Assembly (NCBI RefSeq): GCF_005405925.1
Contig: NZ_BJHV01000001.1
Location: forward strand, 7,812,001-7,876,000
Reading direction: 5' to 3'
Length of the DNA stretch: 64,000 nt
DNA from: Streptomyces antimycoticus
GTDB taxonomy: Bacteria; Actinomycetota; Actinomycetes; Streptomycetales; Streptomycetaceae
Below the pieces are notes generated by a model. That model saw nothing but the letters and a program-made list of their open reading frames with translations. It did not search any database and was not told the origin of the DNA. Shown one piece after another: positions 5,006 to 62,536 of the stretch. The translations under genes and the position numbers were made by a program. Position 1 is the first letter of the stretch. Each line of letters opens with the position of its first letter.

Positions 5006-6855
5006 ATGCATACGGCACGATCAAAGGTCACCAGAGCCGTGGCCGCGCTCGCCTGCGCGGCCGCCGTGCTGGTGCCGCTCCGGGCGGCGGCGGCATCGGA
5101 CGGTCGTGCGCAGGACTGGCGACTGACCGGAAAGGGGCAGGTCAGCGGCGAGCTCAGACTGAGCAACGAGGGCGGTCTTACGCTGGCCGCGCGCCATGGC
5201 GCCACCACCGTGCTGCGGCCGTCGGGCCTGGGCATCCGCACCGCGGAGACCGATTTCAGCAAGGGCTTGCGGTTCGCCGGGCGCAGCGACCGTAAGGTCC
5301 ACGAGACCTATACGACCACCACCGGCCGCCGCACCCACCACACCTCCGACGCCTCCGAGTCGACCTTCACCTTCCGCAAGGACGGGCGGACGCTGAAGGT
5401 GGTCATCCGGGTGGCGGCCGACGGGCTGGCCTACCGCTATGTGATGCCGGACAAGGGGACGGTCACCGTCCTCGGCGAGCACTCGGAGTTCGCCGTCCCG
5501 CCGTCCGCCGACTCCTTCCTCCTGCCGTACGACAACGGCCGCCAGGACTACGAATCCGCCCATGACCACGGCACGGTCGCCGACGCGAAGGCGGGCGACT
5601 ACGGCTATCCGTCGCTCTTCCACATCGGCAAGAGCTGGATGCTGATCGAGGAAGCGGACCTGAACAGCTCGTACGGCGGCTCCCGGCTCGCCCTCGACTC
5701 CGCCACCGACCGCTTCGAGCTCACCCTCCCCGACCCCGCCGAGGTCAGCGGCCCCGGGCTGACCACGCCTTGGCGCACCATGGTCATCGGGGATCTCGCC
5801 ACCGTCACCGAGAGCGATCTGCCGACCGATCTGGCCGCCCCTCGAAGGTCGCCGACACCTCATGGATCAAGCCGGGCCGGGCGGCGTGGTCCTGGTGGTC
5901 GGACGGGCAGAGCCCGACCAGCCTGGACGCCCAGAAGAAGTTCGTGGACTTCGCGGCGCGCGAGGGCTGGGAGTACATCCTGGTGGACTCGGGCTGGAGC
6001 GACTCCTGGATGCCCGAGCTGACCGCGTACGCCAAGGAGAAGGGCGTCGGCGTGTGGCTGTGGGCCCGCTGGCAGACCATCGACGCACAGAGCGAGCGCG
6101 ACCGGCTGTTCCCGCTGTGGAAGTCCTGGGGGGTCGCCGGGCTGAAGATCGACTTCCTGGAGTCGGACGGCCAGGACCGGATGCGCTGGTACGACGCGGT
6201 CTTCAAGGACAGCGCCCGGAACCAGCTGATGCTGAACTTCCACGGCGCCACCATCCCGCGCGGCCAGGAGCGGACCTGGCCGCAACTGATGAGCACCGAG
6301 GCGGTCAAGGGCGCCGAGGGCACCCGCCCCAAGCCGGGCCGCCAGCCCTTCCCGGCGGCGCACTACACGACCCTGCCCTTCACCCGGAACCTCATCGGGC
6401 CCATGGACTTCACACCGGTGACCTTCACGGGCGTACGGCCCACGAGTGACGCGGCCGAACTCGCGCTCTCGGTCGTCTACGAGTCCGGGGTGCAGCACTT
6501 CGCCGACAGCGTGGAGTCGTACGAGAGCCGGCCGCAGGAGCTGAAGTTCCTGAACCAGGTGCCCACGGTGTGGGACGAGACGCACCTGGTCGACGGCGAC
6601 CCCGGCGACCGCGCCGTCCTGGCCCGCCGCTCCGGCGACAGCTGGTACCTGGGCGCGATCACCTCGGGCGAGGCCCGCACGCTGGACGAGCCGCTGAGCT
6701 TCCTCGGCAAGGGCGGCTGGCGGATCGAGGTGTGGAAGGACGGTCCGGACGGCAAGGTCGTCACCGAAACCCACGAGGTCACACGGGACTCGCGGCTCTC
6801 GGTGGACGTCCCGAAGAACGGCGGCTTCGCCGCCAAGCTGACCAAGACCGGCTGA
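5006..6855 (+). CDS. Secreted GH97-like glycoside hydrolase (frameshifted as sequenced)
   Basis: The full-length product would be 616 residues with a Sec signal (ALACAAAVLVPLRAAAA). The N-terminal beta-sandwich runs to about residue 280. The TIM barrel then begins at WIKPGRAAWSWWSDG and includes GLKIDFLESDGQ, where the Asp of KIDF matches the nucleophile of retaining GH97 members, and TEAVKGAEG, a candidate acid/base region. A beta-sandwich closes the protein. GH97 enzymes hydrolyse alpha-glucosides or alpha-galactosides; the KIDF Asp favours the retaining group. The frame breaks at the C-run 5838-5841 (…DLAAP|SKVADTSW…), and one extra C restores it. The length then becomes a multiple of three. 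GAGGAGG precedes the ATG. Confidence 0.82.
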
Positions 6856-6865
6856 CGCGCCCGCA

Positions 6866-6890
6866 CCGCCCCGGCCCGGCACCGGGGCGG
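6866..6890 (+). terminator. Hairpin after the GH97-like gene
   Basis: A nine-base-pair GC stem (CCGCCCCGG with CCGGGGCGG) with a seven-base loop starts 11 bases past the stop. More GC-rich inverted sequence follows up to about 6950, so this may be a compound terminator between two convergent genes. Confidence 0.55.
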
Positions 6891-7141
6891 CGCCGAGCCG
6901 GGCCCGGGGCCCGGCGGGGCGGGACCTGCCTGTGGGGGGCGGGTCCCGCCCCTCCGTGTCCGACCTTGGGCCCGCAAGCGGGGCGGCCCCCGCCGCTGAT
7001 CCCCGCCGCGACGGCGAGACGCCCGACGGCGGAGTCCGGCCGTGCCGAACCGTCCGTACCGGCGGCCACTCCAGCCCATGACGTGGGTCACCCGGCCCGG
7101 GAGGCGAGCTCCGGACCGGCGCCCCCGGACGCCCGCCAGAG

Positions 7142-7965
7142 CTACCGCTTAAGCGCTTCCTTGATCGTGCGCATCACCTCGGCCAGTGGCGCATCCGTCC
7201 GCGCCACCATCACCACCACCTCGTCCTCGTCCGTCGCCGACACCGTCGCCGCGGGGCGGCTGCCGGACGGGAGGGGCGGGCGCCGATGCCGCTCCCGAAG
7301 GTTTCGCGGACGATCGCGAAGGCGTGGTCCAGCTGGGTCTCCACATCGCCCTGGCCACCCGCCCGCAGCCAGCGTCGCAGCACATGGTTGTGGGCCGTGA
7401 CCACGGCCGACGCGGCGACCTCGGCCAGCAGCGGATCGTCGTCGCCGTCGTGGTGGGCGCCTTCGTCGAAGTGGCCCAGCAGATAGCGGGTGAACAGCCG
7501 CTCGTAGCGGGCCACCGAGGCGATCTCCCGCTCCCGCAGCGCCGGTACCTCACGGGTCAGCCGGTAGCGCTCCACGGAGACGGTCGGCGCGGCCGCGTAC
7601 ATCCGCATGACCTCCTTGATCCCGCGGCACACGGTGTCCAGGGGGTGCTCATGCGGAGGTGCCGCGTCCAGCACCGCCGCCGCCCGCACCAACGTGTCGT
7701 CGTGGTCCGGGAAGATCGCCTCTTCCTTGGAGCGGAAGTGCCGGAAGAAGGTGCGGCGGGCCACTCCCGCCCTGGCCGCGATCTCGTCGACGGTCGTCGC
7801 CTCGTACCCCTGCGTCGCGAACAACTCCATGGCCGCGGCCGCGAGTTTGCGGCGCATGGACAGACGTTGAGCCGCGGCGCGGCGACTTCCCGCGCTCTCA
7901 CCGCCACCGGATGAGGGGGATCGCTTCGTACGCTCCGTACGTGTGGCCTTCACGGGCTGGGACAT
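7142..7965 (-). CDS. TetR-family regulator of the ethylmalonyl-CoA region (frameshifted as sequenced)
   Basis: A TetR-type helix-turn-helix lies near residues 35-80 (ATTVDEIAARAGVARRTFFRHF) and is followed by an all-helical ligand domain. The gene stands between the ccr block and the 3-hydroxyacyl-CoA dehydrogenase, so it probably controls these genes in response to an acyl-CoA. The first frame runs into low-complexity Arg/Pro codons, but a -1 shift gives EVVVMVARTDAPLAEVMRTI and a stop at 7142, which looks like a real C-terminal helix. The break maps to the G-run 7253-7256, where one added base restores 274 codons. The start at 7965 is chosen from family alignment; no clear ribosome-binding site is visible. 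Confidence 0.82.
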
Positions 7966-8080
7966 GTGGGGAACGTAACACGCTTGTGAGTGCCGGTGCG
8001 GGGGCAGACCGACGGAAGGCTCCAGCAGCCCGCCCCACCCGGAACCGGACTCAGACGGTCCGCCCCACCCGGAGCAGAAT

Positions 8081-9919
8081 TCAGGCCTTTGCATACTCGC
8101 GGAAGCCGCGCCCGGTCTTGCGCCCCAGGCACCCCGCGGCCACCAGATGCTCCAGCAGCGGCGCCGGCGCCAGGCCCGGTTCACGGAACTCCCGGTGCAG
8201 CACCCGCTCGATGGCCAGCGACACATCGAGCCCCACGACATCGAGCAGTTCGAAGGGGCCCATCGGATAGCCGCCGCCCAGCTTCATCGCGGCGTCGATG
8301 GCGTCCGGGGTTGCGTAGTGCTCCTGCACCATCTTCACCGCGTTGTTGAGGTATGGGAACAGCAGGGCGTTCACGATGAAGCCCGCCCGGTCGCCGCAGT
8401 CCACCGGATGCTTGCCCACCGCCGCGCACACCGCGTGCGCGGTCGCGCGCACATCGTCCGCGGTCAGCACGGTGCGCACCACCTCGACCAGCTTCATCGC
8501 GGGCGCCGGGTTGAAGAAGTGCAGGCCCACCACGTCCTGCGGGCGGGAGGTCGCCCGTGCGCAGGCCACGACCGGCAGCGAGGAGGTGGTCGTGGCCAGC
8601 ACCGCACCCGGTTTGCAGACCTTGTCGAGCACCTTGAAGAGCTCCTGCTTGACGACCAGGTCCTCGGCCACCGCCTCCACGGCAAGATCCACCTCGGCGA
8701 ACGCGTCGAGTGCGTCGGCCGCGGTGATCCGCTCCAGCGCCTGCTCCCGGGCCTGCTTGGTCATCCGCCCCTTGGACACCGACCTTTCCAGGGATTTCCC
8801 TATGCGGGCCTTGGCCCGCTCGGCCTTCTCCAGGGTCCGGCCGGCCAGCACCACCTCCAGACCCGCCTTCGCGAAGACCTCGGCGATCCCGGAGGCCATC
8901 GTGCCCGAGCCGGCGACGCCCACGGCGCGCACCGGACGCGCCCCTTCCGTGGAGTGCCGCACCTCGGCCGCCGCGGCGTCCGGGACGACGGTGGCGCTGC
9001 CCGGCGCCTCGTACGTGTAGAAGCCGCGGCCCGCCTTACGGCCGGTGAGACCGGCCTCGGAGAGCTGCCCCAGGATCGGCGCGGGCGCGTGCAGCCGGTC
9101 GCCGGAGGCGGCGTACATGGCCTCCAGGACGGTGCGGGCGGTGTCGATGCCGATCAGGTCGAGCAGGGCCAGCGGGCCCATCGGCAGCCCGCAGCCGAGC
9201 CGCATCGCGGCGTCGATGTCCTCCCGCGCCGCGTACTTGGCCTCGTACATCGCGGCGGCCTGGTTGAGATAGCCGAACAGCAGCCCGTCGGCGACGAATC
9301 CGGGCCGGTCGCCGAGTGCCACCGGCTCCTTGCCCAGATCGCGGGCGAGGGCGGTGACCGCCTCGACGGCCGCGGGGGCGGTCAGCACGCTGGAGACGAT
9401 CTCGACGAGCTTCATCGCGGGCGCCGGATTGAAGAAGTGCAGGCCCAAGACCCGCTCCGGATGGGCGGATTCGGCGGCCAGCCGGGTCACCGACAGCGCG
9501 TTGGTGCCGGTCGCGACGATCGCCGTGGGGCTGATGACGGTGTCCAGCTCCGCGAAGACCTCGTGCTTGGTGTCGTAGTCCTCGGGCACCACCTCGATCA
9601 CCAGCTCCGCGTCGGCGGCGGCGCGCAGATCGGTGGAGATGCGGAAGCGGTCGAGGATCCCGGCGCGCTCCCGCTCGGTGATCCGCTCGCGGTGCACGGC
9701 GCGGGCGGTGGCGACCTCGAGCGCGGTGACGGCTCGGCGGCAGGCGCCTTCGTTGACGTCGATGCCGATCACCTCGCGGCCCGCCCGGGCCAGGATTTCG
9801 GCGATGCCGGTGCCCATCGTGCCGAGCCCGACGACGGCGACAGTAGTGAGCGGGGCCCGGGAGGGGGAGAGATCAGAGGGGGACGTAGTGCTGACGCCGG
9901 TGTGTGGGAGACGGTCCAT
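8081..9919 (-). CDS. Double-module 3-hydroxyacyl-CoA dehydrogenase
   Basis: This 612-residue protein contains two complete 3-hydroxyacyl-CoA dehydrogenase copies in tandem. Each has an NAD-binding Rossmann loop (VVGLGTMGTGIAEI near residue 25; GVAGSGTMASGIAEV near residue 325), the catalytic HFFNPAPAMKLVE segment and a C-terminal helical dimerisation domain ending in GRKxGRGF. It should oxidise or form 3-hydroxybutyryl-CoA and feed crotonyl-CoA to Ccr. Homologues next to ccr in other Streptomyces have the same double layout. The ATG at 9919 has GGAG about eight bases upstream. Upstream in-frame codons extend the frame to 10063 but look non-coding. Confidence 0.9.
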   Translation of the reverse strand: MDRLPHTGVSTTSPSDLSPSRAPLTTVAVVGLGTMGTGIAEILARAGREVIGIDVNEGACRRAVTALEVATARAVHRERITERERAGILDRFRISTDLRAAADAELVIEVVPEDYDTKHEVFAELDTVISPTAIVATGTNALSVTRLAAESAHPERVLGLHFFNPAPAMKLVEIVSSVLTAPAAVEAVTALARDLGKEPVALGDRPGFVADGLLFGYLNQAAAMYEAKYAAREDIDAAMRLGCGLPMGPLALLDLIGIDTARTVLEAMYAASGDRLHAPAPILGQLSEAGLTGRKAGRGFYTYEAPGSATVVPDAAAAEVRHSTEGARPVRAVGVAGSGTMASGIAEVFAKAGLEVVLAGRTLEKAERAKARIGKSLERSVSKGRMTKQAREQALERITAADALDAFAEVDLAVEAVAEDLVVKQELFKVLDKVCKPGAVLATTTSSLPVVACARATSRPQDVVGLHFFNPAPAMKLVEVVRTVLTADDVRATAHAVCAAVGKHPVDCGDRAGFIVNALLFPYLNNAVKMVQEHYATPDAIDAAMKLGGGYPMGPFELLDVVGLDVSLAIERVLHREFREPGLAPAPLLEHLVAAGCLGRKTGRGFREYAKA

Positions 9920-10313
9920 CGCGGACTCCAGAGGGTGTTCCCCGTAGGCGGGGATGAAGTGACGACTGAGGGGAGCTCGTGCCATGCCACTGCTGCCGTT
10001 CACGCCACGCATGCGCGGGGGGCTGACGCGGCTGACACAAATCCCCGATGGAAGGGCTTGCACGCTCCCTTACGGACAGCGCCGCACGGAGGAAACTGCC
10101 CGTGGGAGACACGTGGCCGACCCTGTCCCGGGGCCATGCCGTACTCGCTTTTCTGGAACTGCCGAACCGACGTCACACAAGGCGGCTGCGTCACCAGGCC
10201 GCCGGAGCAGGGGTGCTGCTCGTGTCGCCATATTAACTCGCGGGTAACCAAGATGCCAGAGCTCAAAGTGCGGCCGTGCCCGGGCGCGGCCCACCGGGGA
10301 GGGGAGACCTCGT
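9920..10313. promoter_or_regulatory. Divergent intergenic region, possible operator at 10233-10247
   Basis: No gene is evident in these 394 bases. A partly palindromic TTAACTCGCGGGTAA at 10233-10247 resembles the imperfect inverted sites used by TetR regulators of acyl-CoA metabolism. That is an inference from its form and the neighbours. A short CRISPR-repeat-like sequence at 9936-9962 occurs once only. Confidence 0.35.
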
Positions 10314-10994
10314 ATGGACGAAGAATTCCGGACGCTGACGGAGCGGGTACGGGCCTCGCTCTCAACCCCGCAGGAAACGGCGGCCCATGCCTCGCTGCTC
10401 GCGCTCGTACGCCAGGGCACCCCCGCCGCGCGCGAACAGCTGGCCCGCATCCTGGTCGCGCCGGAGCAGCCGCTGTGGGCGCGTGAGACGGCCGCCTTCG
10501 TGCTCGGCAGCGCAGGAGACCGCCGGGCCTTCGAAACCCTTGTCCTCCTGCTCAACTACCGTGAGCCGGCCCGCTGTGCGACCGCCGCCCGGGTGCTGGC
10601 CCGCCTCGGCGATCCGCGCACCGCGCGGGCCGCCGCCGCCCTGGCCACCAACCCGCTGCGCACCGCGTACTCCCTGCACCCCATCCGGCTGCTGGTGGAG
10701 CTGCGGGCCGCCGAGTCCGTACCGGCCCTGGTCGCCGCGCTGGAACGGCAGTTGGGAGCCCGCGACCGCCACTGGGCGATCGCCCGCGCCTGCGTCGAGG
10801 GCCTGGGCGCGATCGGCGACGAGCGCGCCATCCCGGCGCTGACCGCCGCCGCCCAGCACATACGCCTCAGCGCGGCGGCCGCCGCCGCCCTGGCCCGCAT
10901 CACCGGCGAGGGCGCCGTCACGGGCGGGGGTGCCCCGGAGCCGGCGGGCAAGGGCGGCGCGGCGGAGAAGGTGGGTGAGGCGCGCGTGCCGTGA
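10314..10994 (+). CDS. HEAT-repeat protein
   Basis: This 226-residue protein is built of about five alpha-helical HEAT/PBS-lyase-like repeats between residues 20 and 205. Examples are WARETAAFVLGSAGDRRAFETL, with its helix-turn-helix periodicity split across repeats, and ACVEGLGAIGDERAIPALTAA. The tail after residue 205 is Gly/Ala/Glu-rich and probably disordered. No catalytic motif is visible, so a scaffold or binding role is likely. Homologues sit beside the ccr region in Streptomyces and have sometimes been labelled adenylosuccinate lyase without support. GGGGAGG ten bases before the ATG fixes the start. Confidence 0.8.
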   Translation: MDEEFRTLTERVRASLSTPQETAAHASLLALVRQGTPAAREQLARILVAPEQPLWARETAAFVLGSAGDRRAFETLVLLLNYREPARCATAARVLARLGDPRTARAAAALATNPLRTAYSLHPIRLLVELRAAESVPALVAALERQLGARDRHWAIARACVEGLGAIGDERAIPALTAAAQHIRLSAAAAAALARITGEGAVTGGGAPEPAGKGGAAEKVGEARVP

Positions 10995-11048
10995 GGGACA
11001 GCAGGGACCGTCCGCCGGGAGGTGCGTGTGCTCACGGCGGTGCGCGCA

Positions 11049-11160
11049 TGCTCACACGCACCTGCTCACACGCACCTGCTCACACGCGCATGCTCACACG
11101 CACCTGCTCACACGCGCATGCTCACACGCACCTGCTCACACGCGCATGCTCACACGCGCG
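11049..11160. repeat. 14-bp minisatellite, eight units, abutting the radical SAM stop codon
   Basis: The units are TGCTCACACGCACC or TGCTCACACGCGCA, largely alternating, at exact 14-bp spacing from 11049. The ninth, broken unit (TGCTCACAG) contains the radical SAM stop codon at 11164-11166. The array fills the gap between two convergent genes. Confidence 0.95.
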
Positions 11161-11163
11161 TGC

Positions 11164-12207
11164 TCACAGCAGGGACAGCTGGGCGGGCGCCGGCGGTGAG
11201 TCGGCCCGGGCGTCCGGCTCCTCCGGCTCGTCCGGCACATTGCGGTGCGCGCCCGCCGCGTACGGGCCGATGCCGTACTCGGCGGCGAAGTCGTGGACCA
11301 TCCCGGTGATCCGCCGCTGATACCACTTCGGGGCGTAGGAGCCGCCCTCGTACAGCGCGTCGTACCGCCGCAGCAGCCGGGGGTGGTGGTGGGTGAGCCA
11401 GGTGGTGAACCACTCGCGGGCGCCCGGGCGCAGATGGAGCACCAGCGGGGTCACGGAGGTGGCTCCGGCCTGAGCGATCGCCCTTACGGTGGCGCGCAAT
11501 TGCTCGGGGGAGTCGCCGAGGAAGGGGATCACCGGGGCCATCAGCACGCCGCACGGGATCCCGTGGGAGGACAGCGTCCGTACGACGTCCAGGCGCCGCT
11601 CGGGCGGGGGCGTGCCCGGCTCGACGGTGCGCCACAGCTCGCCGTCGGTGAAGCCGACCGAGACCGAGACGCCGATGTCGGTGACGCGTGAGGCCCGCCG
11701 CAGCAACTCCAGATCGCGCAGGATCAGCGTGCCCTTGGTGAGGATCGAGAACGGGTTGGCACGCTCCACGAGCGCCGTAAGGATGCCGGGCATCAGCTGG
11801 TACCGGCCCTCGGCGCGCTGGTAGCAGTCCACGTTGGTCCCCATGGCGATGTGCTCACCGGCCCAGCGGCGGGAGGCCAGCTCGCGGCGGAGCAGCTCCG
11901 GCGCGTTGGTCTTCACCACGATCTGGGAGTCGAAGTCGATCCCGGTGTCCAGGTCGAGATAGCTGTGTGTCTTGCGCGCGAAGCAGTAGACACAGGCGTG
12001 GGTGCAGCCCCGGTACGGGTTCACGGTCCACTCGAAGGGCATCCGGGAGGCCCCGGGCACCCGGTTGATGATCGAACGCGCCCGGATCTCGTGGAAGGTG
12101 ATCCCGCGGAACTCCGGGGTGTCGAAGGTACGGGTGGTCACCGCGTCCGCGGCGAAGAGGGCCGGGGTGGCCGACGTGTCGTCTCGGGTCAGGTTGTCCC
12201 AGCGCAT
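11164..12207 (-). CDS. Rv2578c-family radical SAM protein
   Basis: This 347-residue protein carries the iron-sulphur motif GCTHACVYC (CxxxCxxC) at about residue 68, preceded by the family stretch WTVNPYRGC. The triose-phosphate-type barrel follows, with SILTKGTLILRDLELL and GVLMAPVIPFLGDSPE. It belongs to the group of radical SAM proteins named after mycobacterial Rv2578c, related to spore photoproduct lyase-like/SplB annotations, whose reaction is not established. The ATG at 12207 has GGAGG ten bases upstream. The C-terminal tail is acidic and then hydrophobic. The gene's 3' end lies inside a 14-bp tandem array. Confidence 0.88.
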   Translation of the reverse strand: MRWDNLTRDDTSATPALFAADAVTTRTFDTPEFRGITFHEIRARSIINRVPGASRMPFEWTVNPYRGCTHACVYCFARKTHSYLDLDTGIDFDSQIVVKTNAPELLRRELASRRWAGEHIAMGTNVDCYQRAEGRYQLMPGILTALVERANPFSILTKGTLILRDLELLRRASRVTDIGVSVSVGFTDGELWRTVEPGTPPPERRLDVVRTLSSHGIPCGVLMAPVIPFLGDSPEQLRATVRAIAQAGATSVTPLVLHLRPGAREWFTTWLTHHHPRLLRRYDALYEGGSYAPKWYQRRITGMVHDFAAEYGIGPYAAGAHRNVPDEPEEPDARADSPPAPAQLSLL

Positions 12208-12367
12208 CGCAGGCACCTCCGGGGTCTCGCTCGTTACCACAATAGAACACATGTTTGATTGGTTTTCGTCAACCCCCGATTTGGGCGGGTGACCCTGAGG
12301 TGGTTGGCTTGCGCTCGTCAAGGCGCCACGGGCTGGGGGCGCCACGTCGAGCGCGGAGGGACATGCG

Positions 12368-12811
12368 ATGGGCCAGGTCGAGGCCACTACGGAGCGGATC
12401 GTCACGGGTAAGCCCGAGGACGTGTTCGACGCACTCGCCGACTACCGCGAGACCCGCCCCCGGCTGCTTCCGCAGCAGTTCAGCGAGTACGAGGTGCGCG
12501 AGGGCGGCGACGGTGAGGGCACCGTCGTGCACTGGAAGCTCCAGGCCACCAGCAAGCGGGTGCGCGACTGCCTGCTGGAGGTCTCCGAGCCGAGCGACGG
12601 CCAGCTGATCGAGAAGGACCGCAACTCCTCCATGGTCACCACCTGGACCGTCACCCCGGCGGGTGAGGGCACGTCGCGGGTCGTCGTCACCTCGACCTGG
12701 ACCGGTGCGAGCGGCATCGGCGGCTTCTTCGAGCGGACCTTCGCCCCCAAGGGGCTGGCCCGGATCTACGACGAGCTGCTGGCCAAGCTCGCCGCCGAGA
12801 CCGCCCAGTAG
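12368..12811 (+). CDS. SRPBCC-family protein (START/polyketide-cyclase fold)
   Basis: This 147-residue single-domain protein has the SRPBCC layout: an N-terminal strand plus a helix (ERIVTGKPEDVFDALADY), a seven-stranded sheet (VHWKLQAT, TVTPAGEGTSRVVVTSTWT) and a long C-terminal helix (GLARIYDELLAKLAAETA). Such domains bind hydrophobic ligands; no catalytic residues are obvious. GGAGGG upstream of the ATG supports the start. It stands alone, divergent from the radical SAM gene, with 160 bases between them. Confidence 0.82.
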   Translation: MGQVEATTERIVTGKPEDVFDALADYRETRPRLLPQQFSEYEVREGGDGEGTVVHWKLQATSKRVRDCLLEVSEPSDGQLIEKDRNSSMVTTWTVTPAGEGTSRVVVTSTWTGASGIGGFFERTFAPKGLARIYDELLAKLAAETAQ

Positions 12812-13019
12812 CGCTCGGCACGTCCTGATCCCGTCCCCCGGACCGAACGTCGCACTCACCGGTTCGGGTGGTTTTCTCCGCGGTCCGGCATACCCCCCGC
12901 ACACACTCCCACCGGGGGAATGCCGTCTACGGCCCCTCGTCGGTGATTCGTCGCTGTTTGCCCCTGGTTGCGCGTGATGCGAGAAATGGGCGGCGCAGGC
13001 GTGACGAGGGGAGAAGGAC

Positions 13020-15562
13020 GTGGGCGGCACCACCGGGACCACCGGGGCCACCGTGCCGAAGCGGCGAGAGAGCCACGAGCGGCACGGGGGGTACGAACCG
13101 GCGGGCCCTCCCGCCCACGCGACCGACGACGGAACCGACGGGGCCGGGAGCGCGGGCGCGGCGCCGCCTCCGGCGGAGGGCGCCGCCCCGGCGCCCGCCC
13201 CGCTCAGCCCGGCCCGGGTGCGGATGGTCTTCTTCGGGCTGATGCTCGCGCTGCTGCTCGCGGCCCTCGATCAGACCATCGTCGCCACCGCCCTCCCCGA
13301 GGTGGTCGGGGAGCTCCACGGCCTGGACAAGATGTCCTGGACCGTCACCTCCTACCTCCTCGCGGTCACCATCGTGTTGCCGGTCTACGGCAAGCTGGGC
13401 GACCTCATCGGCCGTAAGAGCGTCTTCGTCTTCGCGATCGTCGTCTTCATCGCCGGATCCGCGCTCGCGGGCTGGTCCCGCACGATGGACGAGCTGATCG
13501 CCTTCCGTGCGGTGCAGGGCGTGGGCGCCGGCGGTCTGATGATCGGCGTCCAGGCGATCATGGCCGATATTGTTCCCCCCGGGAACGCGGCCGCTATATG
13601 GGGCTCATCGGCGCCGCGTTCGGCCTCGCCTCGGTGGCCGGGCCGCTGATCGGCGGGTTCTTCACCGACCATGCCTCCTGGCGCTGGTGTTTCTATGTCA
13701 ACGTCCCCTTCGGGCTGGTCACCCTCGCCGTCGTGGCCGCCGTCCTCAAGGTGCCGGAGCCGCCGCGGCGGGCGCGCTTCGACTATCTGGGCGCGCTGTT
13801 CCTGTCGCTGTTCTCCACCTGCGCGGTGCTGCTGACGAGTTGGGGCGGCACGGAGTACGCATGGGGCTCCCGCGTCGTCCTCGGGCTCGCCCTGGGAGCG
13901 GCCGGTTCGGCGATCCTCTTCGTCGTCGTGGAGTGCGTCGTCCCCGAACCGATCATCCCCATGCGGCTGTTCCGCGACTCGGTCTTCTGCGTCAGCGGGC
14001 TGATCGGCGCCGTCGTCGGCGTCGCCCTCTTCGGCGCCGCCAGCTATCTGCCGACCTTCCTGCAGATGGTCGACGGCGTCTCGGCCACCGAGTCGGGGCT
14101 GCTGATGGTGCCCATGATGGGCGGCATGGTGCTGGCCTCGATCATCTCCGGCCAGCTCATCAGCGCCACCGGCCGCTACAAGGTCTTCCCCATCGTCGGC
14201 GGGCTGATCTCCGTCGTCGGCATGTGGCTGCTCTCCCGGCTGGAGGAGGACACCTCCCGCCAGGACTACAGCCTGTGGATGGGCGTCCTCGGGCTCGGCC
14301 TCGGGCTCGTCCTGCCGGTGCTCATCCTCGCCGTGCAGAACGCCGTGCCCGCGGCCGACCTCGGCTCGGCCACCAGCGCCAACAACTACTTCCGGCAGAT
14401 CGGCGGCAGCGTCGGCGCGGCCGTCTTCGGCACGCTCTTCGCCAACCGGCTCGCCGACCGCCTCGAGGTCGACCTGCCCTCCGGAGCCGCGTACGGGCGC
14501 GGCAGTGACGGAACCGGTCTGCCCGACCCCGACTCGGTCACCCCGCAGATGGTGCACGCGATGCCGGGCGCCCTGCGGGACGGCTACATCGCGGCGTACG
14601 CCCACGCCATGCCGCGGATCTTTCTCTATCTCGTGCCGGTGCTCGTCCTGGGCTTCCTGCTCGCCTTCCTCCTGAAGGAGAAACCTCTGGTGTCCCACAC
14701 CGACTATGCCGTCCAGCAAGACCTGCAAGACCCCGTGGTGCCGGCCGCGCGCACGGGCGCCCGGCACGCCGCGGCGGCCGCGCCCTCCGCGCCGCCACCC
14801 TCCGCGGGCGTCCCGGTCTGCGGCACGGTCCAGCACCACGACGGCACCTCGGTCCCGCGGGCGGCCCTGACCCTCATCGACATCGGCGGACGCCAGATCG
14901 GGCGCGGTGCCACCGGGGAGGACGGGCGGTACGCGCTGAGCACGCCCGGCGCCGGGTCGTACGTCCTGATCGCGGCGGCCGGCGGGCACCAGCCGCGGGC
15001 GGTCAGCGTCACCGTCGGGGACCGGCCGGTCGACCTGGACGTGGTCCTCGGCGGGGCGGGGCGGCTCGCCGGTGCCGTCCTTACGGCGGACGGCACCCCC
15101 GTAAGGGAGGCGACCGTCACCCTGACCGATGTGCGCGGCGAGGTCGTCGCGACCACCCGCAGCGGCCGCGAAGGGGGCTATGTGATGGACGAGTTGGTGG
15201 CGGGCGAATACACCCTCGCCGCCAGCGCCCCCGCGTTCCGCCCCGCCGCCCTCCCCGTCTCCGTCCAAGCCGCCCGCGAGACCCGGCAGGACATCGAACT
15301 GGCCGGTGGCGCGGTGCTGCGCGGAGTCGTCCGGGCCACCGGCGGCCGGGTGGTGGAGGACGCCCGGGTCACGCTGCTGGACGCGGCGGGCAATGTGGTC
15401 GACACGGCGACGACGGGCCCGGACGGCGCGTTCCGCTTCATCGACCTGTCGGCGGGCGAGTACACGGTCATCGCGGCCGGCTACCCGCCGGTGGCGACGG
15501 TCCTCCAGGTCGCGGGCGGCGGCCGTACGGAGCGCGATCTCCAACTGGGCTACGAGGACTAG
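13020..15562 (+). CDS. DHA2-type MFS exporter with C-terminal carboxypeptidase-regulatory-like repeats (frameshifted as sequenced)
   Basis: The full product would be 847 residues. After a disordered N-tail, about 14 membrane segments follow the drug:proton antiporter-2 pattern, with [14 protein letters not shown] (motif in TM1), [13 protein letters not shown] (motif A) and [12 protein letters not shown]. Residues from about 600 to the end form three Ig-like carboxypeptidase-regulatory repeats ([47 protein letters not shown]), which are unusual on a transporter. The start is the GTG at 13020, preceded by GAGGGGAGAAGG. The frame breaks at the six-C run 13575-13580; a seventh C gives the expected [15 protein letters not shown]. 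The substrate is unknown. Confidence 0.86.
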
Positions 15563-15572
15563 GCCCGGAGCC

Positions 15573-15604
15573 CCGTCGGGAGGCGCCGCGGCGCCTCCCG
15601 ACGG
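15573..15604. terminator. Perfect 32-bp palindrome terminator after the exporter gene
   Basis: CCGTCGGGAGGCGCC-GC-GGCGCCTCCCGACGG pairs perfectly. It starts 11 bases past the exporter stop and ends 123 bases before the next start. Confidence 0.85.
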
Positions 15605-15727
15605 CGGCCTCCTTCGCACGTACCCGCACATGACACCTATTCGGGTATTGCCTCCCGCGGACGCCCGCAACAGCCGTACCGTGGGTAGCGCTGTCGCAGA
15701 TCTTGCGTGCGAAGGAGTCTTCCGCCT

Positions 15728-18214: not shown

Positions 18215-18930
18215 GCGTCTCGGAGCGCTACCGGCAGGCGTGGGAGAGCTACTGGCAGCAGACCTCGGACGCCCCGGGGGACGCCATCTGGGACGCGGAC
18301 CCTTCGCTGAGCGCCGCCCCGCATCTGGACCTGCTGGCGCCGTACGCCGACCCCTCGCTGCCGATCGCCGACCTGGGCTGCGGCAACGGCACTCAGACCC
18401 GCTACCTGGCCTCCCGCTTCGGGCGGGCGGTGGGTATCGACCTGTCCCGCGCCGCGGTGGAGCACGCGCGGCGCGCCGATCCGGCCGGCGCGGCGGAGTA
18501 CCGGCAGCTGAGCCTGACGGACGCGGCCGGGGTGGCGGAGCTGGCCCGGCGGCTCGGCGACGCCAATGTGTATATGCGCGCCGTCATCCACCAGAGCGAC
18601 GCCGCCGACCGGCGTCCGGTCGCGGAGGCGGTGGCCACGCTGCTGGGGCGGCGCGGGCGGGGGTTCGTCGTGGAGCTGACGGCGGAGTCCAAGGCCGTGC
18701 TGGGAGAGCTGGCGGCGAGCCCGGGCGGTCCGCCGCTGAAGCTGCGCCGGGTCTTCGACCACGGGCTGCGGCCGGCCGACGCGGCGGACAAGGAGGTGCC
18801 GGAGGTGCTGGCGGAGGCCGGGCTGGAGATCCTCGCCGAGGGCCCGACGGCGCTGGCCCAGACGGAGCAGTGGCCGGACGGCTCACGGGTCGAGCTGCCG
18901 GCCCGCTGGTTCGTGGTCTCGCGGGCGTAG
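18211..18930 (+). CDS. Class I SAM-dependent methyltransferase
   Basis: This 239-residue Rossmann-fold methyltransferase carries motif I (PIADLGCGNGTQTRYLA, about residue 50) and the acidic end of beta-2 (AVGIDLS). The C-terminal half lacks features that would name a substrate. It overlaps the SpoIIE regulator by ATGA, so it is translated with it. A functional link is therefore likely, though its nature is not visible. GGGAGCGG precedes the ATG. Confidence 0.85.
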   Translation: MSVSERYRQAWESYWQQTSDAPGDAIWDADPSLSAAPHLDLLAPYADPSLPIADLGCGNGTQTRYLASRFGRAVGIDLSRAAVEHARRADPAGAAEYRQLSLTDAAGVAELARRLGDANVYMRAVIHQSDAADRRPVAEAVATLLGRRGRGFVVELTAESKAVLGELAASPGGPPLKLRRVFDHGLRPADAADKEVPEVLAEAGLEILAEGPTALAQTEQWPDGSRVELPARWFVVSRA

Positions 18931-19112
18931 GGCCCTTGCCCACGGGTGGCCGGGACGCATGCCCGCGGGCGGTTGGGGCCCTTGCGCGCGGGTGGTCGGG
19001 GCGCGGCGGGTACGCGCCGGACGAGGCGGGCACGGGCCGGGCGCGATAGTGGACTGGACCAGTTATCCACAGGGGTGGTTCGGGTCGGGCGCGGCGCGTA
19101 ACGTGACGAGGC

Positions 19113-49876: not shown

Positions 49877-49877
<1 letters not shown>

Positions 49878-51126
49878 CAGTAATCTCCTTCCGGTCCGCG
49901 GAGCACGAGCGCCGCGTTGCAACCCATGAGCCCTCGGCTGAGCACCAGCGCCGTCCGCGGCTCGGCGGGGCGGGAGCTGCGGGTGACCAGGTCGAGCTCA
50001 TGGCAGACGTCGGTGACGTACGGGGTCGGGGGCACGACGCGGTGCTCCATGGAGAGCACGGCGGCCACCACGTCGAGCGTGGGGGCCGCGCAGTGCACCC
50101 GGCCGAAGCCGGTCTTCGGCGCGGTCACCGGGACCCGCGCGCCGTGCGGCCCGAGGGCGTCGGCGATGGCCAGCGCCTCGGCGCGGTCGGCCTCGGGCAC
50201 GCCGAGCGCGTCGGCGAAGACCATGTCGATCTCCTCCGGCGCGCACTGGGCGTCCTCCAGGGCGACGCGGATGGCCTGGGCGAGCCCCTCCCGGGACCGC
50301 TCCCAGCGGGAGGCGCCGGTGAAGGTCGAGCCGTACCCGGCGATAGAGCCCCGGATCCGCACCCCGCGGCGCCGGGCGGCCCCTTCCTCCTCCACGACCA
50401 GCATCGCCCCGCCCTCGCCGGGCGCGAATCCGCAGGCGTCCTCGGTGAACGGCAGATAGGCCCGGCCCGCGTCGCGGGCCCGGCTCAGCTCGTCCCAGCC
50501 GAGCATGCAGACGATGGAGTACGGCGCCAGCGATGCCTCGGAGGCGCCGGCCACCATCGCGTCCGCCCCGCGCCGGATGGACCGGCGGGCGTGCGCGAGC
50601 GCGTCCAGACCGCCGGCCTCGTCGTTGGCCACCACTCCGCAGGGGCCCTTGAACCCCCGCGGATGGAGACCTGGCCGGTGCTGGCCGCGTAGAACCACGC
50701 GATGGACTGGTACGGGCCCACATAGCGCGGCCCCTTGCCGTAGAGCTGCTGCAGCTCGCGCTGGCCGAACTCACCGCCCCCGGAACCCGAGGCGGTCACC
50801 ACGCCGATCGCGAACGGCGACATGTCGTCCACCGGCAGCCGGGCGTCGTCCAGCGCGAGATCGGCCGAGGCCATCGCGAAGTGGGTGAAGCGGTCGGTCT
50901 GGACGAGGAAGCGCTCCTCGATCATCGACGCCGGATCGAAGCCGCGGACCTGGCCGCCGATCCGGACCGGGAAGTGCCCGCTGCCCTCGCGGGAGATCCG
51001 GTCGAGGCAGGGGATCCCCTCCCGGGTCGCCTTCCAGAAGGCGTCGGTGCCCACCCCGTTGGGGGCGATCACACCGATGCCCGTGATGGCCGCGCCCCGG
51101 CTCCGGGTGTCCATCGCCGCGTTCAT
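49877..51126 (-). CDS. whiE-ORFIV: Ketosynthase beta / chain length factor (WhiE ORFIV-type; frameshifted as sequenced)
   Basis: The repaired product has 416 residues of the ketosynthase fold. The active-site position reads [13 protein letters not shown], with the Gln that marks a KS-beta instead of Cys, so it pairs with KS-alpha and sets chain length. The frame breaks at the C-run 50654-50658 (five C on the + strand); a sixth restores [18 protein letters not shown]. It overlaps the KS-alpha stop by ATGA and the ACP start by one base. The C-terminal part ends [20 protein letters not shown]. Confidence 0.92.
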
Positions 51127-52391
51127 GCCGCCCTCCCGTCCGTCCGGCCCAGCACCACCGCGGACTGGAAGCCGCCGAACCCGCTGCCGACCGACAGCAC
51201 ATTGCGCAGCGGCAGGGCGCGGGCGGTGCGCGGGACATAGTCGAGGTCGCATTCGGGATCGGGGGTCTCGTAGTTGGCCGTCGGCGGCACCACGCCATGG
51301 GCGAGCGCCATGGCGCAGGCGACCACCTCGATGGCGCCGATCGCCCCCAGCGAATGGCCCACCATGGACTTGATCGAGCTCATGGGGGTCTTGTACGCGT
51401 GCTCGCCCAGGGACCGCTTCACGGCCGCCGTCTCATGCCGGTCGTTCTGCTTGGTGCCCGAGCCGTGCGCGTTGACGTAGTCGATCTCGTCGCTGTTGAC
51501 GCGGGCGTGGCCGAGCGCGTGGTCGATCGCCTCGGACATCTCCAGTCCCTCCCGCGTCAGACCGGTCATGTGGTACGCGTTGCCGTAGGTGGCGAAGCCC
51601 CGGAACTCGCAGTAGGCCCGCGCCCCTCGGGCCCGGGCGTGCTCCAGCTCCTCCAGGACCAGCACGGCGGCGCCCTCGCCGAGGACGAAGCCGTCCCGGT
51701 GGGCGTCGAACGGCCTCGAGGCGGTGGCCGCGTTGTCGTTGTTCGCCGAGGTGGCCTTGATCGAGTCGAAGCAGGCCACGGTCAGCGGGGTGATCGGCGA
51801 GTCCGCGGCCCCGGCGATGCACACATCGGCCCGCCGCTCCTCGATCGCCTGGAAGGCGTATCCGATCGCGTCGAGACCGGAGGTGCAGCCGGTGGAGACG
51901 GACTGCACGGGCCCCTGCGCACCGGTCAGCTCCGCCACCCCGGAGGACAGCGCGCTCGGTGAGAACGCGTGCTGCAGATGCGGACCCGCCTTGCGGTGGT
52001 CCACATCCCAGTGCTCCCCGGCGTCGCTGACCTTGACGTAGTCCTGCTCCAGCCGGGTGGAGGCGGCGACCGCGCTGCCCAGGGAGACCCCTATCCGCCA
52101 GGGGTTGAGCGCCTGGAGGTCCAGCCCGGAGTCCCGGACCGCTTCCTTCGCCGCCACCAGCGCGAACTGCACATAGCGGTCCGAGCGTTCGATCTGCTCG
52201 AAGGTCAGACCGCCGGCCAGCGGGTCGAAGTCGCATTCGGCGGCGATCCGGGAGCGGAACCGCTCCGCGTCGAAGAGCGTGATGTTGCGGGTGGCCGTAC
52301 GGCCCGCGGTGAGCATGTCCCAGAACGCCGGAACGCCCACACCCCCGGGAGCGACGACACCGAGCCCGGTGACCACCACCCGTCGGGTCAC
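51123..52391 (-). CDS. whiE-ORFIII: Ketosynthase alpha of the pigment PKS (WhiE ORFIII-type)
   Basis: The 422-residue condensing enzyme has the complete triad: Cys in [17 protein letters not shown] (about 173), His in [12 protein letters not shown] and His in [15 protein letters not shown]. It extends the polyketide with malonyl units together with KS-beta and ACP. The start is GTG at 52391, overlapping the cupin stop (GTGA). Position and sequence match the spore-pigment ketosynthases more than antibiotic ones, although the sequence alone does not prove it. Confidence 0.95.
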
Positions 52392-54047: not shown

Positions 54048-54212
54048 ATTCCACTCCTTATTTCGCGGACGCGTCCTTCCGGGCATCGAGGACACCCGCC
54101 CGTTAGACGATCGTGGGGTGCTCCCACCAATGGCGCGAGATATGTGAGCCATCCGAGCGAACGCCTCGTCAGCCTCCCGGAAGAGCCCGGAAACACCGGG
54201 CATAGCAGCACA
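54048..54212. promoter_or_regulatory. Divergent promoter region of the pigment cluster
   Basis: These 165 bases lie between ORFI and the divergent hydroxylase gene and should hold both promoters. In S. coelicolor the equivalent region has a whiE operon promoter and a SigF-dependent hydroxylase promoter. I cannot assign exact -10/-35 boxes from the sequence. Confidence 0.55.
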
Positions 54213-55855
54213 ATGAACCGTCTTGCCGACAATGCTGAGCGTGTGCCCGTCCTCATCGCGGGCGGCTCCCTGGTGGGCCTGTCCGCCTCACTGTTCCTGG
54301 GCCGACTGGGGATCGGTCATCTACTGGTCGAAAAACACCCGCGCACCTCGCACCACCCGCGCGGACGGGGGAACAACATCCGGACGATGGAGCTGTTCCG
54401 CACCGCCGGAGTGGAGTCCGCGATCCGCGAGGCCGCGTCCGTCCTGGCCGACAACCATGGAATCCTGCAGACCCCGTCGCTGACCGGCACGGAGGGCAAC
54501 TGGCTCTTCCGGGAGATGGATCCGGGGGCAAGGCCGCCCGGATCAGCCCTGCCGGATGGTGCCTGTGCAGCCAGAACGACCTGGAGCCGGTGCTGCTGAG
54601 CGCGGCCCAGGACCTCGGTGGGGATCTGCGGTTCTCCACCGAGCTGATCTCCTTCGAGCAGGACGCGGACGGGGTCACCGCCGTGCTCCTGGACCGCAGG
54701 TCCGAACGGCGCTCCACGGTCCGCGCCGACTACCTCATCGCCGCCGACGGCCCCCGCAGCCCGGTGCGCGAGGCGCTCGGCGTCGAGCAGAGCGGACGCG
54801 GTGAGCTGTTCCACAACGTGTCCATCACCTTCCGCGCCAAGCGGCTCGCGGACGCGGTCGGGGACCGCCACTTCATCGCCTGCTACCTCACCAATCCGGA
54901 GGCGGACGGGGCGCTGCTGCCCGTCGACAACCAGGAGCAGTGGGTCTTCCACGCCCCCTGGCACCCCGAGCGGGGCGAGGCGCTGGAGGAGTTCACCGAC
55001 GAGCGCTGCGCCCAGCACATCCGTACCGCCGTCGGCATGCCCGACCTGGAGGTCGAGGTCACCGGAAAGGCGCCCTGGCACGCGGCCGAGCGGGTGGCGG
55101 ACCGCTACTCCGACGGCCGGGTCTTCCTCGCCGGGGACTCCGCGCACGAGATGTCGCCCACCGGCGCCTTCGGCTCCAACACCGGTATCCAGGACGCCCA
55201 CAACCTGGCATGGAAGATCGCCGCCGTCATGGGCGGCTGGGCGGGCCCCGGGCTGCTGGAGAGCTACGGCACGGAACGGCGCCCGGTCGCCCAGGCCACC
55301 AGCGCCCGCGCCGCCGCCCGTTCGGCCGAACACAGCCACCCGGGCTATTCGGCGCCCGCCAGCGAGGACCGGGGTCCGCAGAGCAATGTCATGGCCGTCG
55401 CCATGGGCTACCGCTATGTGCGCGGCGCGGTCGTCGGCGCCGACGCCGCGGCGCCCGCGGTGCCCGACCACTTCACGGTCTCGGCCGAGCCCGGGAGCCG
55501 CGCGCCCCATATGTGGGTGCACCGCTGCGGGGTGCGGCTGTCCACCCTCGACCTGTACGAGCGCACCTGTGTGCTGCTCACCGGGCCGGGCGGGTCCTCC
55601 TGGTACGAGGCGGGCCACCGCGCCGCCGACGCCCTCGGCGTACCGCTGGACTGCTACCGGGTGGGCGACGGACCGGACCATGAACTCGCCCCCGAACCGG
55701 GCGCGGACTGGGCCGAACTGCACGGCACCGCCCCCGACGGTGCCGTCCTGGTCCGCCCCGACGGCTTCGTCGCCTGGCGGGTGGAGCGGTCGGTGCCCAA
55801 CCCGGAGGCCGCGCTGACGCGTGCGCTGCGCGAGGTACTGAGCCTGGACGGCTGA
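54213..55855 (+). CDS. whiE-ORFVIII: FAD-dependent aromatic hydroxylase (WhiE ORFVIII-type; frameshifted as sequenced)
   Basis: The repaired product has 547 residues of the class A flavin monooxygenase family: LIAGGSLVGLSASLFLGRLG (FAD dinucleotide fold), EKHPRTSHHPRGRGNNIRT, YLIAADGPRSPVREALG (DG motif) and LAGDSAHEMSPTGAFGSNTG (GD motif). It would hydroxylate the pigment skeleton. The frame breaks at the G-run 54524-54528; a sixth G gives DPGGKAARISPAGWCLCSQN. Homologues in whiE-type clusters are in the same divergent position. The start is taken as ATG 54213 from alignment; the ribosome-binding site is poor. Confidence 0.9.
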
Positions 55856-56153: not shown

Positions 56154-56816
56154 TCAGCCCGCGGCCTCGCTGCGGGCATCGCCCGCACTGCGGCGCCGTA
56201 GTCGGCGCCACAGTGCGGGGGTCGTGCTGATCACTACCGTCAGCGCCACGGCCGCCGCCACGCCCTCCCACGGTTCGGGGAAGAGCGAGCCGCCCAGGAT
56301 CCCGATGAGCTGATACGTCACCGCCCAGGCCAGCGCCGCGGGCGCGGCGCCGTGGGCGAATCTCCGCAGTGGCCAGCGCGCCAGCAGGCAGGCCAGCATC
56401 ACCGGTATCCGGCCCGCCGGGATCAACCGGGACAGCACCAGAACGGCCACGCCGTGTTCCTCCAGCCGCGCCTGCGCCTGGTCCAGCCGTTCCGGCGCGG
56501 CGTGGTCGTGGATCCGTTCCAGCCACCGCGAGCCGTTCTTCGAAGCCACCCCGCGCCGCCCGAGCCAGTAGAGCATCACGTCACCCGAGAAGGCCGCCAG
56601 CGAGCCCACCCCGAAGACCACCAGCAGCGACAGCGGGGGAGCGGTCTGGTGGATGGCGACCACCGCGGCCGAGGAGACCACCGCACCGGTGGGCACCACC
56701 GGCACCAGCGACCCGAACACCACCAGCAGGTACAGCGAGGGATATCCCACCGCCTGCTGGGTCGACTCGGATGGCACGCTCCGGGCCAGGTCCACCAGAT
56801 TCGCCAGATCCCCCAT
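56154..56816 (-). CDS. DedA-family membrane protein
   Basis: This 220-residue protein has the DedA/VTT layout: YPSLYLLVVFGSLVPVVPTG with the acidic/charged re-entrant loop, GDVMLYWLGRRG, LSRLIPAGRIPVMLACLLAR (conserved R-x-I-P-x-x-R/G part) and a C-terminal membrane helix. DedA proteins are polyprenyl- or phospholipid scramblases/transporters. Its start overlaps the MBL-hydrolase stop by one base (TGATG), so the two are coupled. Confidence 0.9.
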   Translation of the reverse strand: MGDLANLVDLARSVPSESTQQAVGYPSLYLLVVFGSLVPVVPTGAVVSSAAVVAIHQTAPPLSLLVVFGVGSLAAFSGDVMLYWLGRRGVASKNGSRWLERIHDHAAPERLDQAQARLEEHGVAVLVLSRLIPAGRIPVMLACLLARWPLRRFAHGAAPAALAWAVTYQLIGILGGSLFPEPWEGVAAAVALTVVISTTPALWRRLRRRSAGDARSEAAG

Positions 56817-57597
56817 CACCTGGCGGGCTCCAGCCGGACGCACTCCCCGTGCCCCAGCCGGTGCACCACCGCGTCGGGGGCCAGCCGCCCGGCGTGGCGC
56901 ACGAAGTCGTCGCCGGGGGCGTGGAATTCATGTGGACGGATCGCGTCCATCCCGATCGGCCAGTACGTCCCGTAGTGCACCGGCACCGCGCAGCGCGCCC
57001 CCAGCCGCGCCAGCGCCTGGGCCGCGCGGCCCGCGTCGAGATGGCCGGGGCCGAGGTAGGGCCCCCAGCCGCCCACCGGAAGCAGTGCCACATCGCATGC
57101 GCCCACCGCCTCCGCCATCCGGTCGAACAGCCCGGTGTCGCCCGCGAAGTACGTGGTCGACTCGCCGCTCAGCACATATCCCAGCGCGGGCACCCGGCTC
57201 GGCCCGTACGGCAGCCGCCGTCCGTCGTGCTCGGCCGGTACCGCCCGGATCCGCACCTCGCCGACCGTGCACACATCCCCCGGCGCCATCTCGGTCACCC
57301 GCAGCCCCCGCGCCGCCACCACCCGCCGCAGTCCGGGCACCGCCCGTCCGGCCCCGCGCGGCACCACCAGCCGGGTGCCGGGCAGCAGCTTGGCCAGCGA
57401 GCCGGGGTGCAGGTGGTCGGCGTGCAGATGCGAGACCAGCGCCACGTCCGCCACCGCCGCGGCCGCAGGTGGCACGGCCCCCGGCGGCGCCGTAGATGGG
57501 CCAGACGCCGTACGAACAGGGGGTCGGTCAGCACCCGCACCCCGGAGTCCCGCACGGTCGCGGTGGCATGCCCCCACCAGGTGATCTCCACCGACAT
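56816..57597 (-). CDS. MBL-fold metal-dependent hydrolase, UlaG-like (frameshifted as sequenced)
   Basis: The repaired product has 260 residues: TWWGHATATVRDSGVRVLTD at the start, VSHLHADHLHPGSL (HxHxDH), TTYFAGDTGLFDRM (Asp ligand) and VPVHYGTYWPIGMD (last His). The frame breaks at the C-run 57478-57482; a sixth base joins LAHLRRRRGAVPPAAAAVAD. GGAGGCGGGAG precedes the ATG at 57597. It is coupled to the DedA gene and divergent from the MarR gene. Members of this group are beta-lactamase-like hydrolases of unknown substrate. Confidence 0.87.
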
Positions 57598-57677
57598 CTC
57601 CCGCCTCCGTCCCTCGGGCCCGTCCGTCCGATCCTCTCACCCCGCCGGCCGGGGCATGGCATCCGCTCGGCCAGGGT

Positions 57678-60527: not shown

Positions 60528-60579
60528 CAGGTGCCTGAGGATCTGACAGGTGGCTGAGGATCTGACCGGTGCCTGAGGA
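60524..60579. repeat. 19-bp tandem repeat, three units, containing the dipeptidase stop
   Basis: Units CTGACAGGTGCCTGAGGAT (60524), CTGACAGGTGGCTGAGGAT (60543) and CTGACCGGTGCCTGAGGA (60562). The first holds the dipeptidase stop codon (60525-60527). The array ends six bases before the convergent hydrolase stop (60586). Confidence 0.93.
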
Positions 60580-60585
60580 CGGCTG

Positions 60586-61368
60586 CTACCGCCCGATGGT
60601 GGCCGAGAAGGCGTCGATCGCGGCGAACGTGAGCTCCGGGGCCTCCCGGGTGGGGATGTGACCCGCGCCCGGGATCAGCTCGAACCGTGCCCCCGGGATG
60701 GCCGCGGCGTACGCACGGCCGAAGTCGGGCGGGACGACGGTGTCCTGCTCCCCCCACAGCGCGAGGGCGGGCACGCTCACCCGGGCGAGCCGGTGCAGCA
60801 GCTTCGGATCGGACCTCGTCGGGCCCGCGTAGGCCATCAACGCCTGGAGGGCCGCGGGCGAGGGGCCCCGGCGCGGTGCCGGTGCCGGTGCCGATGCCGG
60901 TGCGCCGGAGCCCTGACCGGGCGGCGGGCCGGGCGGACCGGGCGGGGCGGTGGGGAATTGCAGCTCGTGCCCCTCCACGTGCGGGCCGAAGGCGCCCATG
61001 ATGACCAGCCCGCCGACGCGGCGGGCCCGGTCGCGCACGGTCATCTCGGCGGCGATCCAGCCGCCGAAGGAGACGCCGACGACCAGGACATCGCGCAGAT
61101 CGCGGTCGTCCAGCAGGTCCAGATAGGTCTCGACGAGGTCGCCCACGTCCGAGAACCACTCGGGGCGCGGGGTGTCCTCCCAGCCCGGATGGGTCGGCGC
61201 CAGCACCCGGGAGGTGGCGGCGAAGTGGTCCACGATGTCGGTCACGGAGGCGGGTCCGCCGCCGCCGTGCAGCACGAGCACGGGTCGGCCCGCGCCCACG
61301 TCCCGCACCCTCAGGGGAAGGCCGGGGTAGGGCTCGATGGTGAATCCGGTGGTCTGGTGGGTGGTCAT
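60586..61368 (-). CDS. Alpha/beta hydrolase
   Basis: This 260-residue protein has the alpha/beta-hydrolase core: VLVLHGGGGPASVTD (oxyanion), VVGVSFGGWIAAEM (G-x-S-x-G with Ser near 97), LWGEQDTVVPPDFG (acid) and GAGHIPTREAPE (His). A Pro/Ala-rich lid at about 138-165 ([20 protein letters not shown]) is unusual. The substrate is unknown. It overlaps the monooxygenase gene upstream by ATGA and is probably translated with it. Confidence 0.87.
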   Translation of the reverse strand: MTTHQTTGFTIEPYPGLPLRVRDVGAGRPVLVLHGGGGPASVTDIVDHFAATSRVLAPTHPGWEDTPRPEWFSDVGDLVETYLDLLDDRDLRDVLVVGVSFGGWIAAEMTVRDRARRVGGLVIMGAFGPHVEGHELQFPTAPPGPPGPPPGQGSGAPASAPAPAPRRGPSPAALQALMAYAGPTRSDPKLLHRLARVSVPALALWGEQDTVVPPDFGRAYAAAIPGARFELIPGAGHIPTREAPELTFAAIDAFSATIGR

Positions 61369-62536
61369 CGGGCCTCACCGCCGGAGGTGACCGCGGTGAA
61401 GGTGTCGCACGCGATCCGCAGGCCGTCCGGGTGGAAGAAGCCGGTGAGGTTGTCGGCGGAGTGCGCGGCCGCCTCTTCGGCGCGCGGGAACATAGGGGTC
61501 TCGTAGGCGTTCAGAGCCGTCTCCAGGTCGTCGTGAGCGGCGAGGGCGAGGGCGAGTTCCGCGCCGTCGAGCATGGCGAGGTTGGCGCCCGCCCCGCGAA
61601 GGGGGACATCAGATGGGCGGCATCGCCCAGGAGCGTGACGCCGGGCGTCCGCTCCCAGCGGTGGCCGATGGGCAGGGCGTGGATGGGCCGGGGGACCAGC
61701 GGGCCGTCGCTGTCGGCGATCAGGGCACGCAGCCCCTCGTCCCAGTCGGGGAAGAGGTCCAGCAGCCGCTTCCTGGCCGCCGCCGGGTCCGCCGGGTCGA
61801 TCAGGCCCGAACGGCTCCACTCCTCCGGTGCCTTGACCGCGGCGTAGACGCGGACGCGGTCGCCGCCGTTGCGCTGGGCGATCAGCCCCTTCTCGTCGGC
61901 CAGGGCGAACATCGTGCCCCGGCCGACGAGTTCGGCGACGGCGGGGTGCCGGGCGTCGACGTCGTGCAGCAGACAGTCCACGAACGAGATTCCGGAGTAG
62001 ACCGGATCGGCGTCGGACACCAGGGGCCGGACCCTGGACCACGCCCCGTCCGCGCCGACCAGCAGATCCGCCTCGACGGTCCGGCCGTCGGACAGGGTGA
62101 GCGTGGGCCGCCCCGCCGTGCCGAGGGCGACCGCGCGCACCTTGTGACCCCAGCGAACGGTCGCCTCGGGCAGCGAGCCCAGCAGCAGATCTCGCAGCGC
62201 CCTGCGGTCGATCTCGGGCCGCTCTTCTCCCTCGTCTCCCTGGGCCGGTTCCGGAGCGGGGATGCGGAAGCCGACGGCCGCGTCCTTGTCGAGCAGCCGC
62301 AGCTCCCCGTCCTCGGGGCGGCTGAGCGGCCGGAACTCCTCCAGCAGGCCGGCGTGCAGCAGCGCCCGCTGACCGGACGCGGGATCCATGTCCAGCGAGC
62401 CGCCCTGGTCGCGTGCGGTCGCCGAGGCGTCCAGTTCGTAGACGGTCGAGGCGATGCCGTGGACGTGCAGAACGCGCGCCAGCGTCAGGCCGCCCAGCCC
62501 TCCTCCGACGATGGCGATACGGGGTGCTCCGGACAT
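61365..62536 (-). CDS. TetX-like FAD-dependent monooxygenase (frameshifted as sequenced)
   Basis: The repaired product has 390 residues: IAIVGGGLGGLTLARVLHVH (FAD fold), DQGGSLDMDPASGQRALL, PEIDRRALRDLLLGSLPE, DLLVGADGAWSRVRPLV and LLGDAAHLMSPFAGAGANLA. These segments follow the TetX tetracycline-monooxygenase group closely, although the actual substrate is not known. The frame breaks at the C-run 61592-61595; one more base on the + strand gives SPFAGAGANLAMLDGAE. GGGAGG precedes the ATG. It is divergent from a TetR gene across an array of palindromes and overlaps the hydrolase gene by ATGA. Confidence 0.88.

Follow-up and report, generated by a model that had tools for sequence, protein, structure and literature searches.

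The PacBio assembly of Streptomyces albus SM254 contained 205 single-base indels in 7.17 Mb that were corrected by Illumina polishing (PMC4832174). For Streptomyces strains GS93-23, S3-4, and 3211-3, PMC6923854 gives 70, 295, and 335 SNPs and indels between PacBio-only and short-read-corrected assemblies, and describes the vast majority of the corrections as single-base insertions in homopolymers. False gene fragmentation in long-read assemblies is also the subject of Kastor (PMC12007338), which, as its abstract describes, recognizes gene-breaking errors against intact relatives, as was done here; it is a tool paper, unlike the present case.

Here, we describe twelve reading-frame breaks in 64 kb (the window) at positions 7812001–7876000 of contig 1 in a three-contig, 11.17-Mb Streptomyces genome. 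The SM254 and PMC6923854 genomes resemble this one in having single-base indels concentrated in G/C homopolymers of GC-rich Streptomyces. They differ in that Illumina reads stand behind their corrections and comparison with relatives stands behind ours, and the break density of the window exceeds the average implied by their counts. The twelve breaks are very probably assembly errors in which C/G homopolymers were called one base short, a reading that rests on sequence comparison. Most likely, they are a known, ordinary artifact of sequencing GC-rich DNA and no biological feature.

For the choice of references, 392 members of the genus were drawn, of which 152, including the genome itself, were scored and 240 were not scorable. 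The closest scored genomes over window positions 1–20000 were G071 (96–97% identity), G166 (96%), G112 (91–95%), and G085 (87–91%); in the base-by-base comparison, identity was about 96% for G071 and about 94% for G112. Stretches were aligned from G071, G112, and G085, with G071 covering 60.4 kb of the 64-kb window. The main contigs, G000:C1 of this genome and G071:C3, are largely collinear with different start points (5.0 Mb here corresponds to 10.25 Mb of G071:C3, and 5.5 Mb to 0.1 Mb), which means that the two records are rotated with respect to each other. Sampled sequence totaled 515 kb: the window (60.4 kb), 168 kb nearby, and 287 kb distant, the last from 17 stretches of 20 kb. Stretches L143, L150, and L162 had no unambiguous counterpart and were left out of the comparison. 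Alignments of <300 bases or <84% identity were excluded from the scans, as were triplet-length gaps and those of >5 bases. Coding status was assigned by whole-ORF codon-periodicity models; a 120-base periodicity test for each gap was too weak, with most gaps ambiguous. G112 versus G071 served as a control pair over the window and 14 of the 17 distant stretches; the near sequence has no control.

The initial annotation had reported twelve one-base losses in eleven genes, and both counts were borne out in the alignments. G071 and G112 were each one base longer than the window at 12 of 12 sites. G085 spans eight of the sites and shows the same gap at six (breaks 3, 5, 6, 8, 9, and 11 in order of position), its alignment being too gappy for judgment at 7273 and 22194. 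G166 spans one site (5838) and agrees there. In G071, every break point falls inside a single uninterrupted ORF; there are eleven such ORFs for twelve breaks because 24820 and 25260 lie in the same gene. Ten of the reported positions were right and two were misplaced. The run at 7253–7256 is intact in G071, and the loss there was located at 7268–7276; positions 24827–24832 read GGGCCC, which is no run of one base, and that loss was located at 24820–24824.

On the forward strand, break 1 is a C run one base short at 5838–5841 in a GH97 glycoside hydrolase gene (about 5006–6855; the intact G071 protein is GH97). Break 3 is a short C run at 13575–13580 in a gene for an MFS transporter with CarboxypepD_reg repeats (about 13020–15562). 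Break 4 is a short C run at 22194–22197 in an S9 prolyl-oligopeptidase-family gene (about 21286–23372). Break 5 (24820–24824) is a loss in or beside the C run 24820–24823, early in a DUF5107 gene (about 24777–26994) that also contains break 6, a C run one base short at 25260–25263. Break 10 is a short G run at 54524–54528 in a gene for an FAD-binding aromatic-ring hydroxylase (about 54144–55855).

On the reverse strand, break 2 (7268–7276) is one base short beside the G run 7273–7276 in a TetR-family regulator gene (about 7159–8241; the G071 protein has TetR_N). Break 7 is a G run one base short at 27880–27883 in an ORF of 117 aa without a Pfam match (about 27804–28157). Break 8 is a short G run at 28229–28232 in a methyltransferase gene (about 28184–29049), near the C-terminal end at codon 270 of 285 in G071. 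Break 9 (50654–50660) is a loss in or beside a C run in the pigment-cluster gene for KS-beta, the chain-length factor (about 49877–51252), where the ketosynthase match is split. Break 11 is a C run one base short at 57478–57482 in a gene for a metallo-beta-lactamase-fold protein (about 56816–57598), and break 12 is a short C run at 61592–61595 in an FAD-binding monooxygenase gene (about 61361–62840). The eleven genes are unrelated in function, in keeping with the initial view that the breaks strike unrelated genes.

In the exporter at 13020–15562, three carboxypeptidase-regulatory-like repeats come after the MFS transporter part; in G071, the whole is one intact protein of 849 aa.

When non-triplet differences of one to five bases were checked against the ORF models, neither another coding frameshift nor a coding insertion in the window was backed by both relatives. 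The coding shifts in the window that both relatives back are all missing bases, as had been claimed. An insertion relative to G071 alone lies at 36180, at the edge of a gene model. Elsewhere in the sampled genome, L148:19110 is a one-base coding insertion relative to both G071 and G112, so losses are not the sole kind of difference there.

Run lengths were compared by a flank-matched test, in which every C/G run of at least three bases in G071 was measured in this genome, provided that the five bases flanking it on either side matched. Losses are commoner as run length grows. In the window, 0/329 runs of length 4, 7/93 of length 5, and 2/11 of length 6 were shorter than in G071. The distant stretches gave 4/1491, 6/356, and, for six or more bases, 8/41; all sampled sequence gave 8/2805, 22/678, and 12/64 for lengths 4, 5, and 6. 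Among all sampled runs of at least 4 bases, 44 were shorter and 9 longer. When G071 runs of three are counted, 13 were longer (44 versus 13, binomial p = 5e-5). The test also found three non-coding runs in the window, with no strand assigned, that are one base shorter than in G071: G runs at 6980–6983 and 12914–12918 and a C run at 27192–27195. The window holds 816 C/G runs of at least 4 bases and 20 A/T runs. Of the earlier statement that all losses fall in C/G runs, the location in runs, the single direction, and the bias to longer runs exceed chance; the restriction to C/G is partly composition.

These patterns are what would be expected if the consensus were one base short in some C/G runs with a length of about five bases or more. 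Such undercalls would arise from long-read data of a 72% GC genome incompletely corrected with accurate reads. The reads themselves would then hold the longer runs. The platform would be a long-read one, as in the two published Streptomyces cases, and thinner coverage or failed polishing may account for the higher rate in the window.

Alternatively, the shorter C/G runs may be true and recent mutations: the strain would have accumulated single-base deletions there, with slippage left unrepaired as one possible route and relaxed selection during culture as a possible setting. Slippage occurs naturally in runs, and to our knowledge, actinobacteria lack MutS/MutL-type mismatch repair. We consider this explanation improbable. 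Among coding runs of at least 5 bases, 22/540 were shortened here versus 0/209 in the control pair (p = 0.001), or 12/349 versus 0/209 (p = 0.005) once the near sequence, lacking a control, is removed. For coding runs of at least 4 bases, 25 were shorter and 1 longer (n = 2863), an excess of losses over gains that also argues against mutation. Between G112 and G071, 0/1201 coding runs changed; of 271 non-coding runs, 5 were shorter and 4 longer. Coding runs are therefore hit in a manner foreign to the evolution of the relatives. The number of breaks, twelve within 60 kb and with unrelated functions among them, likewise speaks against mutation.

Non-coding runs of at least 5 bases showed no clear difference from the control (14/205 versus 3/76, p = 0.57), which weighs against undercalling. 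Across all sampled sequence, shortening of runs of at least 5 bases was 22/540 in coding versus 14/205 in non-coding sequence (p = 0.13); in the control pair, it was 0/209 versus 3/76 (p = 0.018). Undercalling is likely to be completely indifferent to coding status. In the distant stretches alone, coding runs of at least 5 bases were hit somewhat less than non-coding runs (6/265 versus 8/132, p = 0.08), a point in favor of true mutation, so full blindness to selection falls short of proof.

Decay was assessed in the frame of G071, with intact window genes for comparison. Past the breaks, 81/231 changed codons were non-synonymous; in the intact genes, 349/960 were. The row at 24819, whose stretch overlaps that of 25259, was left out of these counts. 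Before the breaks, the fraction (70/152) was higher than in intact genes, another point against undercalling. No relaxed constraint was detected past the breaks, and a second coding break occurs only in the gene with breaks 5 and 6. This upholds the earlier observation that the remainder of each gene is intact, and recent true mutations would likewise show no decay. Together with the direction and run-length dependence of the losses, the coding rate above control, the spread across the genome, and the state of hisG (both described below), it points to homopolymer undercalls rather than decay, the reading that the initial annotation had favored.

Losses are present across the genome, beyond one locus. 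By one automatic rule, breaks by one-base loss numbered 9 in the window (60.4 kb), 10 nearby (168 kb), and 9 in the distant stretches (287 kb); the rule overlooks three of the window's twelve because the piece was too short or trimmed. Over the 515 kb, the same rule found 28 loss breaks in this genome versus 3 in G071. One of the three (48988, in the upstream stretch) adjoins a break of this genome and may belong to the other side.

The only HisG-family match found in the genome starts at 8510940. In the gene models, hisG begins in a different frame from its remainder, the gene being split by a one-base loss at G000:C1:8510939 (L217; L159:10939). Residues 2–182 of the intact G071 protein match hisG, and the break falls at codon 48. 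No second hisG copy was found in the genome, which argues against true mutation. Outside the window, modular polyketide genes also have three ketosynthase domains that are split between two frames, near 3985060, 9856080, and 9500500 of G000:C1 (L213, L214, and L216); the break at 9500500 is the same as L161:497 and was counted once. A fourth suspected split ketosynthase, at 9461676, lies in a single frame and was rejected.

The break rate in the window is about five times the distant rate. The window holds 9 of the 18 breaks found in window and distant sequence together, in 17% of that sequence (one-sided p = 0.0016), and its excess over near and distant sequence pooled gives p = 0.0036; both p-values are optimistic because the window was picked by its reader for its breaks. 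The excess is smaller when measured by runs of at least 5 bases (window 9/104 versus distant 14/397, p = 0.035; versus near sequence, p = 0.24). With 0.722 GC and 2.98 runs per kb, the window is within the range of the other stretches (0.671–0.728 and 1.75–3.5), so neither GC content nor run density explains the excess. We infer a local gap in coverage or polishing. The excess may instead mark a physical trait of the stretch, for example a reduced copy number in the culture that was sequenced, modification of an unusual kind, or rearranged DNA in a subpopulation. Such a trait would thin read support and concentrate undercalls; this seems unlikely.

A methylated or phosphorothioated motif beside the run could also mislead a base caller. 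In the window, each of the 8 break runs of four bases has a G on the 5′ side of the C strand, and GAG follows the C run in 4/36 shortened versus 25/704 unchanged runs (p = 0.047, uncorrected, for one of six contexts tested). Among runs of at least 5 bases, however, G was enriched neither on the 5′ side (20/36 shortened versus 327/704 unchanged, p = 0.31) nor on the 3′ side (22/36 versus 402/704, p = 0.73), and modification is a very improbable cause.

Under homopolymer undercalling, users of the record would wrongly call dead the pigment chain-length factor, the aromatic hydroxylase, the exporter, hisG, and the modular polyketide genes. Simply scaled up, the distant rate of 9 in 287 kb would mean about 350 breaks in the whole 11.17 Mb, by a rule that overlooks some. 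Such assemblies can be flagged cheaply and without reads by applying the flank-matched run test with a close relative as reference.

Programmed ribosomal frameshifting, in which the shorter runs would be slippery sites yielding two products, is barely credible: C or G runs can be slippery, but the same genes are in one open frame in G071 and G112 at 12/12 sites, they are unrelated in function, 113 of the 120 KS-beta relatives listed (of 1434 matches in the protein search) are at least 400 aa, and in two short relatives, P0002 and P0048, the break does not coincide with that of KS-beta in the window. Among the 120 matches listed, no intact KS-beta from a second assembly of this species was recognized; the nearest full-length relative in that set is P0003, which is 89% identical across 64% of the piece. 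P0002 (214 aa) and P0048 (211 aa) had been candidates for a shared KS-beta frameshift and were rejected on alignment, which shows where each departs from the family sequence. They come from other assemblies, and their early ends fit independent frameshifts.
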